Assembly (NCBI RefSeq): GCF_007833215.1
Contig: NZ_CP042239.1
Coordinates: 1,674,001 to 1,738,000, forward strand
Direction: 5' to 3'
DNA length: 64,000 nucleotides
DNA from: Sphingomonas suaedae
GTDB taxonomy: Bacteria; Pseudomonadota; Alphaproteobacteria; Sphingomonadales; Sphingomonadaceae
The translations under genes and the position numbers were made by a program. Positions 1,030-21,515 of the stretch are shown piece after piece. Every line of letters starts with the position of its first letter. The stretch's first letter is position 1. Under the pieces are notes generated by a model, which saw only the letters and a program-made list of their open reading frames with translations, searched no databases and was not told the origin of the DNA.

Positions 1030-3168
1030 TTACGGTCGTGGTGACATCACCGTCTCGGGCTTCAGCCATGGATGCCGCGCCCCCGGCGCGCGTACGGTTT
1101 CCACATGCGGCTCCGGTCCAAAGGTTATCGCCACCCCGCCGGTCTGGCGCAGCAGCGCGCGGTCGAGCTTTAGCCAGCGCGGGGTGCAGCCCCGGGGCAG
1201 CCAGCGATCCGCGATGAAAATATCCACCGACGCACACAAATCCACCATCTCGCGCCACGGCACCCGATAGCCGCTCCGCGTCGCCGCGATCCGCCATGTC
1301 CGTCCTCCGCGCTCCACCGTCACCACGCACAGGTCCGCGCTGCATCGCGCGTCGCGCTGGTCGGCCAGTGCGGGGAGCGCGGCATCGACCCCACCATTCT
1401 CTGCCAGCGTGTCCCGGACATAATCCCCCGCCCGGTCGCGCAGCAGCGCCATCTCGCCGCCTGGCATCCGCAGCGCGAGATGCTTGCCGTCACCGGTCAC
1501 CAGCAGATCCGGCATCGGCGTCGCCAACGCCCAAACCGCCCCCGCCGCCACCGGCAGCAGCCCGGCCACCCGCACCCGTGTCCGCCACAGTGTGATCCAC
1601 AGCCCGCCAGCGACCATCAGCGCATAGGCCCCGCCCGGCATGGCAGGCAGCATCGCCAGCGCGCCGGGCGCATTGGCGACGCTGTGCGCGATCCACAACA
1701 GCAGATGCAACCCCTGTTCCGCCACCCACCAGAAGGGCGCGCCCAGCCCGGCCAGGTCGAAGAACAGCCCCGCCGCCTCGAACGGCATCACCACAAAGGT
1801 GGTCAGCGGGATCGCGACGATGTTCGCCAACGCGCCGTAAATCCCCGACTTGTGAAAATGATAGAGCGCGATCGGCGTCAGCGCGATCTCGACCACCAGC
1901 CCGGTCAGCAGCAGCGAGCCGATACCGCGCCCGACTCGCATCCCCCAGCCCTCCTCGCGCCGCTCGAACCAGCCGCGCACCCGCGCGCTCTCGAACAGCG
2001 CGACGATCGCGGTTACCGCGGCGAAACTCATCTGGAAGCTCGGCCCCATCAGCGCCTCGGGCCAGAGCAGCAGCACGACCAGCGCGCCGAACGCGACCAG
2101 CCGCAGCGTGATCGCCTGCCGCCCCAGCATCATCGCCGCCAGCACCATCAGCGCCGCGATGCACGACCGCACCGTCGGCACCTCCGCCCCGGTCAGCAGC
2201 GTATAGCCGATCGCCACCATACCCGCCGCGCCCGCCGCGATCACCGGCAGCGGCCAGCGCAGCGCCAGTGTCGGACTGAGCGCCAGCAGCCGCAGCACCA
2301 GCAACATCGTCGCCCCGACCACCGCCGTCACATGCAGCCCGCTGACCGACAACAGATGCGCCAGCCCCGACCGGCGCAGCGCCTCGGCATCCTCCTCGCT
2401 GATCGCCCCCCGGTCGCCGGTCACGAGCGCTGCGGCGATCCCGCCCGCGCTCCCCCCGATCTGGCTCTGGACATGCGCCGTCAGCCGCGCGCGCAGCCCG
2501 CTATCGGGTCGCCCCGGCACCACCACCGCGACCCGCGCGAATCCCCGCCCCGTCGCGCCCAGCCCCTCGAACCAAGCCACCCGGTCGAATGCATAGGCCC
2601 CCGGCACGGCTGCCGGCGCTGGCGGCATCAGCCGCGCCCGCAGCCGCACCCGCGCGCCGGGCGTCAGCCCATCCGGCATATCCTTCACCGCCAGATTGAC
2701 CCGCACCGTCGGCGGCAGCCGGGTCGCCGCGTCGGTGGCGATGCGCAGCCGTACCAGCTCGCGCGCGGGCAGCGGTTCGATCCGCTCGACCGTCCCCGCC
2801 ACCTGCACCACCGCCGGTCGCGCCAGCACCGGCGCCGCCACGCGCTCGGCCCGCCACCACACCAGCGCGCAGCCCAGCGCCACCAGCACCGCGCCCCAGG
2901 CCAGCGCCCGTGCCGCCCGCCCGCCGCGCCCCACCGCAAGCGCAGCCGCCCCGACCGCCAGCGATCCCAGGATCACCGCCCCCCATCGCGCCGCATCGGG
3001 CAGCACGAACCACGCCGCGATCCCCATGCCCAGCATCACCGGCACCCACAGGAACAACTGCCCGCGCTCGGCCTCCAGCCAGCGTTCCGCCGCCGCTCCG
3101 GCGCGCGCGCCGGGCGGGTCCGGCATCGCCCGCGCCGCCCCCGGCGCGCTCATGGCTCGGCTCCCCAT
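1030..3168 (-). CDS. comEC: ComEC/Rec2-family DNA uptake channel
   Basis: This is a 712-residue polytopic inner-membrane protein. It has an N-terminal DUF4131-type region, the ComEC competence domain with the signature [10 protein letters not shown], and many hydrophobic segments. The family passes transforming single-stranded DNA across the inner membrane. The C-terminal ~150 residues occupy the place of the usual metallo-beta-lactamase domain but show no HxHxDH motif, so that domain is degenerate or absent. The start at 3168 has only a weak upstream AGG; an ATG at 3153 has GGGGAG just two bases away. It is divergent from gltX. Identification as ComEC is firm, but transformation ability is not shown here. 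Confidence 0.88.
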
Positions 3169-9362: not shown

Positions 9363-10100
9363 ATGTCCAGCCGTCCCGTCGCCACGCTCTATCGCATGGT
9401 CATGCCGGGCCATATCTGCCCCTATGGTCTCAAGTCGAAGGCGCTGCTGGAGCGCAAGGGCTATGCGATCGACGATCACTGGCTGAAGACACGGGCGGAA
9501 ACCGACGCGTTCAAGGCCGAGCACGACGTCGCCACCACGCCCCAGACCTTCATCGACGGCAAGCGGATCGGGGGCCATGACGATCTGCGCCGCCATTTCG
9601 GCCTCCACGTCCGCGAAAAGGGCGAGACCAGCTACGCCCCGGTCATCGCGCTGTTCGGGATGATGGCGCTGATGGCGCTCGCCGCCAGCCATGCAGCCTA
9701 TGGCTCCCCCTTCACGATTCGCGCCGCCGAATGGTTCATCTCGTTCAGCATGGTCGCGCTCGCGATCCAGAAGCTGCGCGATGTCGAGAGCTTCTCGACC
9801 ATGTTCCTCGGCTATGACCTGCTCGCCCGCCGCTGGGTCCCCTATGCCTATCTCTATCCCTTCGCGGAGGGCGCCGCAGGCATATTGATGACGGCACAGG
9901 CGCTGCACTGGTTGTCGATCCCGCTCGCGGCATTCATCGGCACGGTCGGCGTGATATCGGTGTTCAGGGCGGTCTATGTCGAGAAGCGCGAGCTCAAATG
10001 CGCGTGCATGGGCGGCGACAGCAGCGTGCCCTTGGGCTTCGTCTCGCTGACCGAGAATGTGATGATGGTCGCGATGGCGGCGTGGATGCTGCTGCGGTAA
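9363..10100 (+). CDS. Glutaredoxin-MauE/DoxX fusion membrane protein
   Basis: The product has 245 residues. Residues 1-80 are a glutaredoxin-like domain with a single-Cys site CPYG (Cys19) and the TTPQTFIDGKRIGG substrate loop. The rest is a four-helix MauE/DoxX-type domain ending with a CAC pair in LKCACMGGDS. MauE-type domains carry redox equivalents across the membrane in methylamine dehydrogenase maturation and related roles. AAGGAG at 9351-9356 precedes the ATG. The gene is driven by the mer-type promoter. A role in thiol redox or thiol-metal stress is inferred. Confidence 0.83.
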   Translation: MSSRPVATLYRMVMPGHICPYGLKSKALLERKGYAIDDHWLKTRAETDAFKAEHDVATTPQTFIDGKRIGGHDDLRRHFGLHVREKGETSYAPVIALFGMMALMALAASHAAYGSPFTIRAAEWFISFSMVALAIQKLRDVESFSTMFLGYDLLARRWVPYAYLYPFAEGAAGILMTAQALHWLSIPLAAFIGTVGVISVFRAVYVEKRELKCACMGGDSSVPLGFVSLTENVMMVAMAAWMLLR

Positions 10101-10101
10101 A

Positions 10102-10184
10102 TGGTGGGAGGGTGTGGTTACGCTCCACTCCCCGAAGGACCGGTTTTACAGACCGGCTGCCGGAACTACCGGCTTTACCCTCCC
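10102..10184 (-). ncRNA. tRNA-like structured RNA with Tyr anticodon loop and encoded CCA
   Basis: Read on the minus strand, the 83 nt fold as a cloverleaf. An 8-bp acceptor GGGAGGGT (10184-10177) pairs with ACCCTCCC (10113-10106), followed by ACCA. The left arm is GCCGG/CCGGC. The anticodon arm is CCGGT-CTGTAAA-ACCGG, whose loop is that of tRNA-Tyr (anticodon GTA). A UUCG-capped variable hairpin follows, then a 4-bp T-like arm GTGG-AGCGTAA-CCAC. The left loop is short and the T-loop lacks TTC, so this is not a canonical tRNA. It lies in the gap between two convergent genes. Function unknown. Confidence 0.5.
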
Positions 10185-10400
10185 GGACAGAGGGCAATGG
10201 CAATGCTGTGAGATGAATCTGGCAAGATGAAGCCGACTGCTTCATCCGTCTCGCCGTCCCGCATCCCGGGACGCACGCCATCGCCCCGTCAATCAGATGA
10301 CGCGGTAATATCGATAGCTGTGGCGGACCTGCGTGTTCATGCGCCGCCACATAGCGGCGTCGATGCGCGCGTCAAGCTGCGATGCACGCTCGACACGAGT
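10185..10400. other. Noncoding spacer with two hairpins
   Basis: No credible gene is seen. Two perfect short hairpins are present: GATGAAGC/GCTTCATC at 10226-10246 (loop CGACT) and GTCCCG/CGGGAC at 10256-10272. Neither is followed by a T-run. They could help stop transcription from the peptidase gene or belong to the tRNA-like unit. Confidence 0.4.
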
Positions 10401-11615
10401 TTAGCGGGCGGCGATCAACCGTCGCGCCTCGGCAATTCCCGCCGCGAGGATGTCGGCGCCATCGGGCACCGCCACATCAGGCTCGAGCAGCCAGCGCGGG
10501 CGGTCGTTCACATCATAGACCGGCTCGGCCGAATATTGCAGTTCCAGGCCGCTGCGATCGAGCCGCAGCGGAAACACCGCCGCGCCCAGCCGCATCATCG
10601 GCGTGCCGACGATCCGCGCGCGGCCCAGCCCGCGCATCCCCATCGGAAAACCCTCGGCCATGCTGCCGCTCCATCGGTTGCACAGCACGACGACGGGGCG
10701 TTCATAGGTGAACGGTCCGCGCGGTTCGACGACCTCGGTCCACGCCGCACTCAGCCCCGCCCCCGCCCGGCGGCGCATCCGCGCATAGGGCCGCGTCTCG
10801 GTGATGAACCGGCCCATGATCGGTCGCGCGACGGCGGTATCCCCGCCGCCATTGTCGCGAACGTCGACGATCAGCGCCGGCGCATCGCGCAATTCCGCCA
10901 GCCCCAGGTCGAACGCCGCGATCGCCGCATCGTCGGAAAAGCCGCGGATCGCGATCAGGCCGATGCCATTGTCCAGCCTGCGATGACTCACCTCCGCCAC
11001 CGCATCGCGCTGCTTGAGCGGCAGCGACAGGTCGCGCACCGCGCCGTCGCGCCGCACGGTCATGCGGCGCGGCGTCGACCGTCCCCCCGCCACGACGGAA
11101 TTGATTACGAAGGCGTCGGCTTCGGGATCGGCCCGCGACAGGCACCGCAGCGCCGCGTCGCGGATCGCCACATCCACCGATCGCCCGTCGACCGCAGTCA
11201 CGATGTCGCCGATCGCAATTCCCGCCGCGCTTGCCGCCGAATCCGTCTGCACCGCCGTCACGCGCACTCCGTCCGGCGCGCGGGCCACGATCAGGTCGAA
11301 CGGCGGCATTCGCGGAGTCCCGTCGGGCGCGGTCCGGATATTGGTGTGCGTGTCGTACACTTCGCCCAGCGCACCGCGCATCACCAGCGCGAACGCATCC
11401 CAGTCCGGCGCGGCGAGCGCCAGCGGCCGATAGACGCGCCGCACCGCCGCCCAATCGGTCGTCTTCTCGCCGAAATAGCAATAGCGCTCCGCGAGCGTCT
11501 CCCACATCTCGTCAAAGTCCTGCGCCATCGAAATGTCGCTCGGTGGTTCCTTCGCGAACGCTGGCAAGGTCAGGCCGGCGGCAAGGCCGGCCAGCGTCGC
11601 GCGGCGGGTGATCAT
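10401..11615 (-). CDS. Exported S41-family (tail-specific) serine peptidase
   Basis: This 404-residue protein has a twin-arginine-like leader (ITRRATLAGLAAGLTLPAFA). A PDZ-like segment follows (VTAVQTDSAASAAGIAIGDIVTAVDGR), then the S41 catalytic domain with VDVRDNGGG and the nucleophile region RWSGSMAEGF. S41 peptidases (CtpA/Prc and tricorn-like) use a Ser-Lys dyad or Ser-His arrangement to cleave unfolded or C-terminal-tagged proteins, and this one should act in the periplasm. It lies five bases after the kinase-like gene, which suggests co-transcription. Confidence 0.85.
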   Translation of the reverse strand: MITRRATLAGLAAGLTLPAFAKEPPSDISMAQDFDEMWETLAERYCYFGEKTTDWAAVRRVYRPLALAAPDWDAFALVMRGALGEVYDTHTNIRTAPDGTPRMPPFDLIVARAPDGVRVTAVQTDSAASAAGIAIGDIVTAVDGRSVDVAIRDAALRCLSRADPEADAFVINSVVAGGRSTPRRMTVRRDGAVRDLSLPLKQRDAVAEVSHRRLDNGIGLIAIRGFSDDAAIAAFDLGLAELRDAPALIVDVRDNGGGDTAVARPIMGRFITETRPYARMRRRAGAGLSAAWTEVVEPRGPFTYERPVVVLCNRWSGSMAEGFPMGMRGLGRARIVGTPMMRLGAAVFPLRLDRSGLELQYSAEPVYDVNDRPRWLLEPDVAVPDGADILAAGIAEARRLIAAR

Positions 11616-20288: not shown

Positions 20289-21515
20289 ATGACCGAATAC
20301 GCATCCGATCTGCTCCGCACCCTGTCCGACCGTGGTTACATCCACCAGGTCACCGACGCCACTGCGCTCGACGCGCTGGCGGCCAAGCAGATCGTGCCCG
20401 GCTATATCGGCTTCGATCCCACCGCCCCCTCGCTCCACGTCGGCAGCCTCGTCCAGATCATGCTGCTGCGCCGGATGCAACAGACCGGGCACAAGCCGAT
20501 CGTGCTGATGGGCGGCGGCACCGGCAAGATCGGCGACCCCAGCTTCAAGGACGAAGCGCGCAAGCTGATGACGGACGAGGTCATCGCGGCCAATGTCGCG
20601 TCGATCAAGACCGTGTTCGAAAAGTTCCTGACCTTCGGTGACGGTCCCACCGACGCGATGATGGTCGACAATGCCGACTGGCTCGACAAGCTCGAATACA
20701 TTCCCTTCCTGCGCGACATCGGGAAGCATTTCTCGATCAACCGCATGCTCAGCTTCGACTCGGTCAAGCTGCGCCTCGACCGCGAACAGTCGCTGTCGTT
20801 CCTCGAATTCAACTACATGATCCTCCAGGGCTATGACTTTCTGGAGCTGTCGCGCCGCGCCGGATGCCGGTTGCAGATGGGCGGGTCGGATCAGTGGGGC
20901 AACATCGTCAACGGCATCGAGCTGTCGCGCCGCGTCGACGGGACCGAAGTGTACGGCGTCACCACCCCGCTGATCACCACGGCCGACGGCGGCAAGATGG
21001 GCAAGACCATGTCGGGCGCGGTGTGGCTCAACGAAGACGCGCTCCCCGCCTTCGATTACTGGCAGTTCTGGCGCAACACCGACGACCGCGATGTCGGCCG
21101 CTTCCTGCGCCTGTTCACCGATCTGCCGCTGGACGAGATCGCCCGCCTCGAAGCGCTGCAGGGCGCGGAAATCAACGAGGCGAAGAAGATCCTCGCGACC
21201 GAAGCCACCGCCATGTGCCGCGGCCGCGACGCCGCGCTGGCCGCCGAGGAAACCGCGCGCAAGACCTTCGAGGAAGGCGCCTCCGGCGACGCCCTGCCCA
21301 CTTTGTCGGTCAGCGGCGAGATCAGCGTCGTCGACGCCCTTGTCGGCCTCGGCTTTGCCGCGTCCAAGGGCGAAGCCCGCCGCCTGATCAAGGGCGGCGG
21401 CGCGCGCATCGATGGCGAAAAAGTCGGCGATGAAGCCGCGACCGTCACTGTCGGCGCCGATCCGGTGCGCGTGTCGGCGGGGAAGAAGCATCACGGGCTG
21501 CTCAACCCCGTCTAG
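20289..21515 (+). CDS. tyrS: Tyrosyl-tRNA synthetase
   Basis: The product is a class I aminoacyl-tRNA synthetase of 408 residues. The HIGH-like motif is HVGS in [21 protein letters not shown], the KMSKS-like motif is KMGKT in [13 protein letters not shown], and the tyrosine pocket shows [13 protein letters not shown]-terminal S4 RNA-binding domain ([27 protein letters not shown]) binds tRNA-Tyr. Length and domain order are normal. It is divergent from the DOMON-like gene. Confidence 0.96.

Follow-up and report, generated by a model that had tools for sequence, protein, structure and literature searches.

The window (the whole stretch of 64,000 nucleotides of DNA analysed here) contained a tRNA-like element on its minus strand at positions 10102..10184. 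The element lay directly after the stop codon of a glutaredoxin-MauE gene (9363..10100, plus strand), which is convergent with it and ends beside it, and a co-directional S41 peptidase gene (10401..11615, minus strand) was located upstream. By Pfam, the neighbours in the window were citrate synthase, S41 peptidase and MauE. A leader module on the minus strand was also found upstream of the element. It comprised a candidate -35 motif, TTGAC, 35 nt before an ATG (10371..10375), a candidate -10 hexamer identified by eye, TATGTG, 7 nt before the ATG (10348..10353), a leader ORF encoding MNTQVRHSYRYYRVI with three Tyr codons (10293..10340), the putative attenuator strands 2, 3 and 4 (10255..10288) and a linker between the hairpins and the element (10185..10254). 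The tyrS gene, which was the only TyrRS match of the genome, was found at 20307..21488 on the plus strand; the earlier note had correctly placed tyrS in the window. Its account of the locus held for the tRNA part and missed the upstream leader ORF and hairpins.

The RNA of 10102..10184 was predicted to fold into a cloverleaf with an 8-bp acceptor stem, a 5-bp D-like stem, a 6-bp anticodon stem with the loop CUGUAAA and a 4-bp T stem. Its GUA anticodon is at 10147-10149, its D loop UAGUU at 10164-10168, its T loop AGCGUAA at 10118-10124 and its encoded ACCA at 10102-10105. The minimum free energy (MFE) was -40.3 kcal/mol; the 200 shuffles averaged -28.9 kcal/mol (sd 3.3), and not one of them equalled it (z -3.5). 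The coordinates and the anatomy given by the earlier note (8-bp acceptor, CTGTAAA loop, 4-bp T stem, AGCGTAA and ACCA) were borne out by this fold, as was its description of a noncanonical tRNA with an 8/4 acceptor-T branch and a Tyr anticodon. Two of its details stood only in part. The UUCG hairpin that it took for a long variable arm does exist, as a 2-bp mini-hairpin between the anticodon and T stems, but the variable arm is not long, being 10 nt, whereas the canonical tRNA-Tyr encoded by this genome has 14 nt and the relatives have 10-16 nt, and UUCG was not conserved among relatives. Of the G18 and G19 that it reported lost, G18 is replaced by A, but G19 is retained, as is C56. The presence of a tRNA-like element at 10102..10184 is thus confirmed.

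ARAGORN called only a tRNA-Gln in the window and missed the element. Rfam gave no tRNA match (RF00005) at the element, even at E 10 over 9900-10420, and it detected the element in none of the seven loci with the element to which it was applied (L052, L053, L056, L057, L059, L075, and L104); the canonical tRNA-Tyr of the same genome scored 63.5 bits with Rfam. Some relatives are called by ARAGORN, including L036, L052, L111, L112, and the leader-bearing L057, in which the sole call was the element itself. The carrier genomes had one match each to the canonical tRNA-Tyr pattern (10 of 10 tested), which ARAGORN read as tRNA-Tyr in the eight loci examined, and one TyrRS match each (10 of 10). Given one canonical tRNA-Tyr and one TyrRS per carrier genome, the element is an extra tRNA-Tyr with a presumably shared synthetase, and a second TyrRS as a dedicated partner was rejected.

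When 295 genomes of the genus were searched at the DNA level, 47 matched, and only five matches extended beyond short stretches (<50 bases): those of the own genome, G046 (locus L033), G292 (L034), G288 (L035) and G063 (L036, tRNA part only). In the large genome searches, which score few candidates per genome and can miss members, model R1, built from four element copies, matched 7 of 396 genomes of the order, one of these in an array, and 4 of 114 genomes in the genus of G475. Over 337 genomes of the class, R1 gave, besides the own genome, three weak matches (32-36 bits) that were read as canonical tRNA-Tyr. A 21-base pattern identified 12 loci in named genomes, of which 9 matched R1, all from Sphingomonadales. 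L064, L066, and L070 gave no R1 match. The same pattern identified 17 viral loci, 16 of them with full R1 matches. No match to the element was found in the plasmid search. Other tRNA genes occurred within 1.5 kb in 20 of 37 loci. Of the remaining 17, L071 was degraded, and 16 had no further tRNA within that distance and represented 13 distinct units. One of these 13 stand-alone units, L082, is from a contig catalogued as viral. L103 repeats the element and leader of L067, and L113 those of L072. In two Sphingomonadaceae genomes, G063 and G558 (L036 and L060), the element was in a tRNA array beside Leu and Ser tRNAs.

Two close relatives (L004 and L005) have the same junction without the segment 10101..10400. 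However, L034 retained the 300-bp segment at the same junction with MauE, and in L033 the segment lay, as it does in the window, between a gene read as citrate synthase and one read as histidine kinase. Loss after vertical descent therefore fits better than mobile insertion, which was rejected. A downstream co-directional gene was also rejected: the long ORF 3' of the tRNA was convergent in most units, judged by ORF length alone, and Pfam gave no match for six candidate ORFs near the tRNA of L069, L072, and L082, four of them co-directional and two opposite.

Conservation was assessed with 27 aligned elements (alignment A7), in which identical copies were entered once. L036, L071, L107, and L112 were excluded. 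In separate tables, L071, a degraded copy whose leader was not seen, was dropped from the comparison of relatives, and L036 from the stem table that accompanied the elbow rows, because its longer D loop shifts the columns; L084, which is partial, and five weak second matches were also dropped. Standard pairs filled 97.6% of the 621 pair cells, 18 of 23 pairs showed double-sided changes and all four stems had compensatory changes. None of 500 shuffles reached any of the five covariation measures, and pairing dropped to 41-51% when the partners were slid. The eighth acceptor pair was present in 25 of 27 rows. The anticodon, G19 and C56 were invariant, and the ACCA end varied solely in Cellulophaga phi38:1 (ACAA). 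At the elbow, positions 18 and 55 covaried in 24 of 24 rows, which share ancestry, so that their Fisher value is no true probability, with A18 accompanied by G55 in 16 rows and G18 by U55 in 8; the elbow position numbers are our own assignment, and position 18 of L036 was set by hand. The T loop was AGCGUAA in 16 of 24 rows, the D loop was 5 nt in most copies, and U54 and U55 of translation tRNAs were missing in most copies. For the loci found with the 21-base search pattern, the constancy of the T stem and of part of the T loop is no evidence, because the pattern itself prescribed them. The covariance check over homologous loci that the earlier note had proposed supported the stems. Because compensation is seen and the stems, the anticodon, the elbow and the CCA end have all been kept, the RNA is not the decayed tRNA that was then considered; a chance fold, or a terminator serving both convergent genes, is likewise rejected on the covariation. 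That 10102..10184 is a tRNA gene appears nearly certain from these comparisons, and the conserved second tRNA-Tyr of unusual shape, often missed by standard programs, is by the same token judged to be real.

The identity elements of tRNA-Tyr are the GUA anticodon, A73 and G1:C72. The element family has all three, with G1:C72 in 26 of 27 rows. Similar to canonical bacterial tRNA-Tyr, the element possesses the CTGTAAA loop, G1:C72, A73 and an encoded CCA. Different from it, however, the canonical form has a 7/5 branch, G18G19, a TTC loop and a 14-nt variable arm. Branches of 8/4 and 9/3 have been described for allo-tRNAs and selC* tRNA-Cys (Mukai et al., 2017, as summarized in PMC7609411), with which the element shares an 8/4 acceptor-T branch outside the usual shape. 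In that account, however, these tRNAs are of Ser/Ala- or Cys-type with longer variable arms, whereas the element has a Tyr anticodon, A73, G1:C72 and, in most copies, a 5-nt D loop. Moreover, section 5 of PMC7609411 describes no attenuator for them, whereas the units in this study carry a leader module. A Tyr anticodon alone does not exclude Ser identity; as the longer variable arm is absent, the element was not filed as an allo-tRNA.

Relatives of the element were found in Erythrobacter phage L02, Rhodobacter phage RcXuper, Caulobacter phages of the phiCbK type, Cellulophaga phages and Sinorhizobium phage Phosso, as well as in Brevundimonas phages, where the element is annotated as tRNA-Tyr. 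Two phage relatives annotated as tRNA-Tyr were also called by ARAGORN. In phage arrays, the AGCGUAA form sits among tRNAs of other isotypes, and ARAGORN found no other Tyr tRNA in the array stretches L073, L075, L083, and L086. However, further tRNA-Tyr genes accompany the element in L074, with two additional ARAGORN calls (644-727 and 3030-3114), in RcXuper, where an unannotated element directly precedes an annotated tRNA-Tyr in tandem (L053 6001-6177), and probably in Phosso. The Phosso record contained a further unannotated tRNA-Tyr-like match of 30.9 bits (L105 4316-4406).

All 13 stand-alone units had a leader ORF of 14-15 codons with 1-3 Tyr codons, all located 3-7 codons before the stop codon; the ATGs were chosen by eye. 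Tyr-containing stretches included SYRYYRVI in the window, FYYRLVI in L069, SYYYLVG in L072, EYYYPAN in L056, AYYYPVI in L057, and HRYPYAA in L059; L058 had one Tyr codon only and L059 two. Tyr accounted for 34 of 191 leader codons, with TAT and TAC exchanged between units, and Arg was also frequent (29). The control codon of the leader is thus the codon that matches the anticodon of the downstream tRNA product. TTGAC was found 35-39 nt ahead of the ATG in 13 of 13 units, and a -10-like hexamer was recognized by eye ~7-10 nt before the ATG, so near that the mRNA would be leaderless. By eye, no leader module was seen in the 260 nt upstream of the 20 array-type loci.

Strand 1 is at the end of the leader ORF, where its support in the window is weak, and strands 2, 3 and 4 follow the stop codon. 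In the window, strand 3, CGTCCCG, can pair with CGGGGCG (helix 2:3) or alternatively with CGGGACG (helix 3:4). Summed over the 13 units and compared with 500 dinucleotide shuffles, helix 2:3 scored 249 vs 151.9 (sd 9.8; ~10 sd), helix 3:4 246.5 vs 161.5 (sd 10.0; ~8.5 sd) and helix 1:2 188 vs 151.4 (sd 10.9; ~3.4 sd), and the single units that fell below 5% of shuffles numbered 12, 10 and 4 of 13, respectively; these scores are guides only, given the relatedness of the units and search windows that were defined with the helices already in view. RNAalifold chose 2:3 unprompted. Covariation of 2:3 in a machine alignment was weak, with one double-change cell and 73 of 500 shuffles as good on pairing. 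For 3:4, with arms picked by hand, 77 of 78 cells were paired and two pairs showed double changes. No U tract was seen after 3:4 in the units, including the window, and 3:4 is therefore no ordinary intrinsic terminator. In each of the 13 linkers C outnumbered G, which would suit Rho. In 10 of the 13 units, the MFE fold of the full transcript retained the whole cloverleaf, the others keeping 15-22 of its 23 pairs; when strands 1 and 2 were hidden, the cloverleaf shrank in only four of the 13 units, to 11-15 of 23 pairs. An anti-acceptor in the linker that would misfold the tRNA was rejected, as its signal was weak (197.5 vs 178.0, sd 9.3; 4 of 13 units below 0.05).

To test the linkage between leader and tRNA, 397 genomes of the family were searched at E 0.01 with model R2, for which only the leader modules had been used. 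R2 matched 66 genomes, of which 60 scored below 25 bits and six above. The top five, at 54-79 bits, were the own genome, G545, G475, G447, and G1116, all with the tRNA downstream; they are no new cases, because R2 was built from four of them and the sequence of G1116 is that of L072. Nine weaker R2 loci that were tested had no R1 match. The sixth genome, G1188, with 29.9 bits, was a new case, in which a Tyr leader, MKMFALGYRYPRSN, and hairpins are followed by a different unusual tRNA-Tyr (L118 1425-1585, minus strand). The T loop form of this tRNA is TGCGAAT, its predicted fold has a 7-bp acceptor and a 5-bp T stem, and TTGAC is missing at the usual distance before the ATG. By eye, the strand GACGGGC, which can pair with GCCCGTC, belongs to the 5' half of the tRNA's acceptor stem, and one switch helix would thus unfold the tRNA. 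Folded without the leader, the G1188 sequence formed 2:3 together with the cloverleaf. T loops of the form TGCGAAT or TGCAAAT were also found in the phages Kabachok and CcrColossus (both unannotated), in a Vibrio phage (annotated as tRNA-Tyr) and in a Sphingobium phage Lacusarx candidate; three other matches of the TGCGAAT-type search (L146-L148) had different T loops.

Ribosome-mediated attenuators, such as the his, trp and phe leaders, combine a short leader peptide rich in the sensed residue with alternative helices. The units in this study share both features, with helix 1:2 the weaker part. However, the known leaders control enzyme operons, whereas here a tRNA gene would be controlled, by a leaderless ORF with a weak strand 1 and no U tract. 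On this likeness, attenuation by the leader is likely. On balance, we favour the reading that the element is a reserve tRNA-Tyr gene behind its own Tyr-codon sensor, which would be made when Tyr decoding stalls. The promoter would start a leaderless transcript with the short ORF, whose Tyr codons precede the stop by 3-7 codons. When charged tRNA-Tyr is plentiful, the ribosome would reach the stop codon and cover strands 1 and 2, 3:4 would form, possibly with Rho as the means of stopping expression, and little RNA would reach the tRNA. When the ribosome stalls at Tyr codons, it would hold strand 1, so that 2:3 forms, 3:4 is blocked and the tRNA is produced. RNase P would then free its 5' end, and the 8/4 tRNA with its GUA anticodon would be charged by the single TyrRS and supplement or replace the canonical tRNA-Tyr. 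From the arrangement of the units we infer transcription, the direction of the switch, the stop mechanism at 3:4, charging, use in translation and the trigger. As more tRNA would cure the destruction of tRNA-Tyr and not plain tyrosine starvation, destruction of the canonical tRNA-Tyr is the most plausible trigger, and the purpose would probably be a reserve for tRNA-Tyr loss. Against this reading speak the rarity of the units (7 of 396 genomes of the order with an R1 match), the absent U tract, the weak 1:2 and the weak covariation of 2:3, the few Tyr codons of L058 and L059, the missing TTGAC in G1188, the weak R2 matches in 60 further genomes and the lack of U54 and U55 in most copies.

Loss of tRNA-Tyr is known from phage defence. 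According to PMC11555353 and PMC13096335, retron-Eco7 PtuAB depletes tRNA-Tyr, Septu cuts its variable loop, and tRNA-Tyr of T5-like phages rescues. Earlier work cited in PMC13096335 is reported there to show that T5 tRNA-Tyr resists cutting via its variable loop, and the same text states that T6 tRNA-Tyr is cut. PMC11555353 also describes rescue of phage from retron-Eco7 by the tRNA-Tyr of E. coli when this was expressed from a strong promoter. An unusual shape is therefore not required for rescue, and together with the cutting of T6 tRNA-Tyr this suggests that the amount may matter more than the shape. Phage tRNAs have also been proposed to be insensitive to host anticodon nucleases (PMC10264068). 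Similar to the rescuing phage tRNAs, the element would be an extra tRNA-Tyr, and its family has phage relatives; T5, T6 and SP15 tRNAs were set beside this family by description and not by sequence. A bolder version of the proposal, which in our estimate falls somewhat short of an even chance, is that the stand-alone Sphingomonadaceae tRNA belongs to a disguised family shared with phages and serves as a self-sensing emergency tRNA, switched on upon destruction of tRNA-Tyr through a leader that reads its own codon, with the altered elbow and variable arm evading a nuclease, and that the G1188 leader directly controls tRNA folding.

Four other explanations were weighed against the reserve tRNA-Tyr. 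The first, which we consider unlikely, is that the RNA is a regulator or TyrRS decoy, made upon Tyr stalling and charged or bound by TyrRS off the ribosome. The T loop AGCGUAA and A18 do depart from translation tRNAs, a single TyrRS would serve both the canonical tRNA and the element, and some phage arrays hold the element beside further tRNA-Tyr. However, the AGCGUAA form sits among other isotypes in phage arrays, with no other Tyr call in L073, L075, and L083, the elbow covaries, and ARAGORN calls L057 as tRNA-Tyr. Thus, the decoy or regulator that the earlier note suggested is not the preferred explanation, given the phage arrays, four of whose stretches had no other Tyr call, and the ARAGORN calls of L057 and two phage relatives; the arrays with additional tRNA-Tyr (L074, RcXuper and probably Phosso) count against that outcome. 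No likelier is a working spare tRNA-Tyr in which the leader-like ORF and the hairpins serve processing, Rho entry or a small protein instead of attenuation. The missing U tract, the weak 1:2 and the modest covariation of 2:3 would agree with such a role, but Tyr occurs in 13 of 13 leaders, 2:3 and 3:4 were well above shuffles, and the additional unit of G1188 has the same layout with other sequences. Very improbable is a tyrosine donor outside translation, in peptide or lipid tailoring or another isotype-specific pathway. The unusual elbow could keep the RNA off the ribosome, but the phage relatives lie in tRNA arrays, and no common biosynthetic neighbour was noticed in the window, L033 or L035, the neighbours in the latter two being read from translations as citrate synthase, histidine kinase, permease and carotenoid-type genes. 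Finally, an artefact, either a decayed tRNA or a terminator of two convergent genes, is hardly credible: the position directly after the MauE stop codon and the absence from two close relatives would suit it, but the stems show compensatory changes, the anticodon, CCA and elbow are conserved and the tRNA unit also occurs at other sites with different neighbours.

If the reserve reading holds, a tRNA gene attenuated through a leader peptide that contains its own codon would represent a new type of circuit, in which the ribosome reports the loss of one tRNA and a substitute is made. Among the titles and abstract openings surveyed, which included few subscription journals, no leader-controlled tRNA genes or Tyr leaders and no unusual tRNA-Tyr like these were found. 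Such a circuit would be a host-side counterpart to the tRNA-Tyr-destroying defences and to the phages that bring their own tRNA-Tyr, as described in PMC11555353 and PMC13096335.

The finding also bears on the annotation of phage tRNAs. An unannotated 8/4 family member with an R1 score of 55.5 bits was found in Caulobacter phage phiCbK between annotated tRNA-Ser and tRNA-Phe genes (L104 2994-3078), and an unannotated tRNA-Tyr candidate with an R1 score of 14.9 bits and the T loop TGCAAAT was found in Lacusarx (L110 6294-6377). The phiCbK-like phages have been published as having no Tyr tRNA (PMC3556154), and Lacusarx as being without only Met and Tyr tRNAs (PMC5648845); both statements rest on tools able to miss such tRNA forms. 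In two records of Cellulophaga phage Calle_1 (H34 and H38), the element is annotated as tRNA-Ser.
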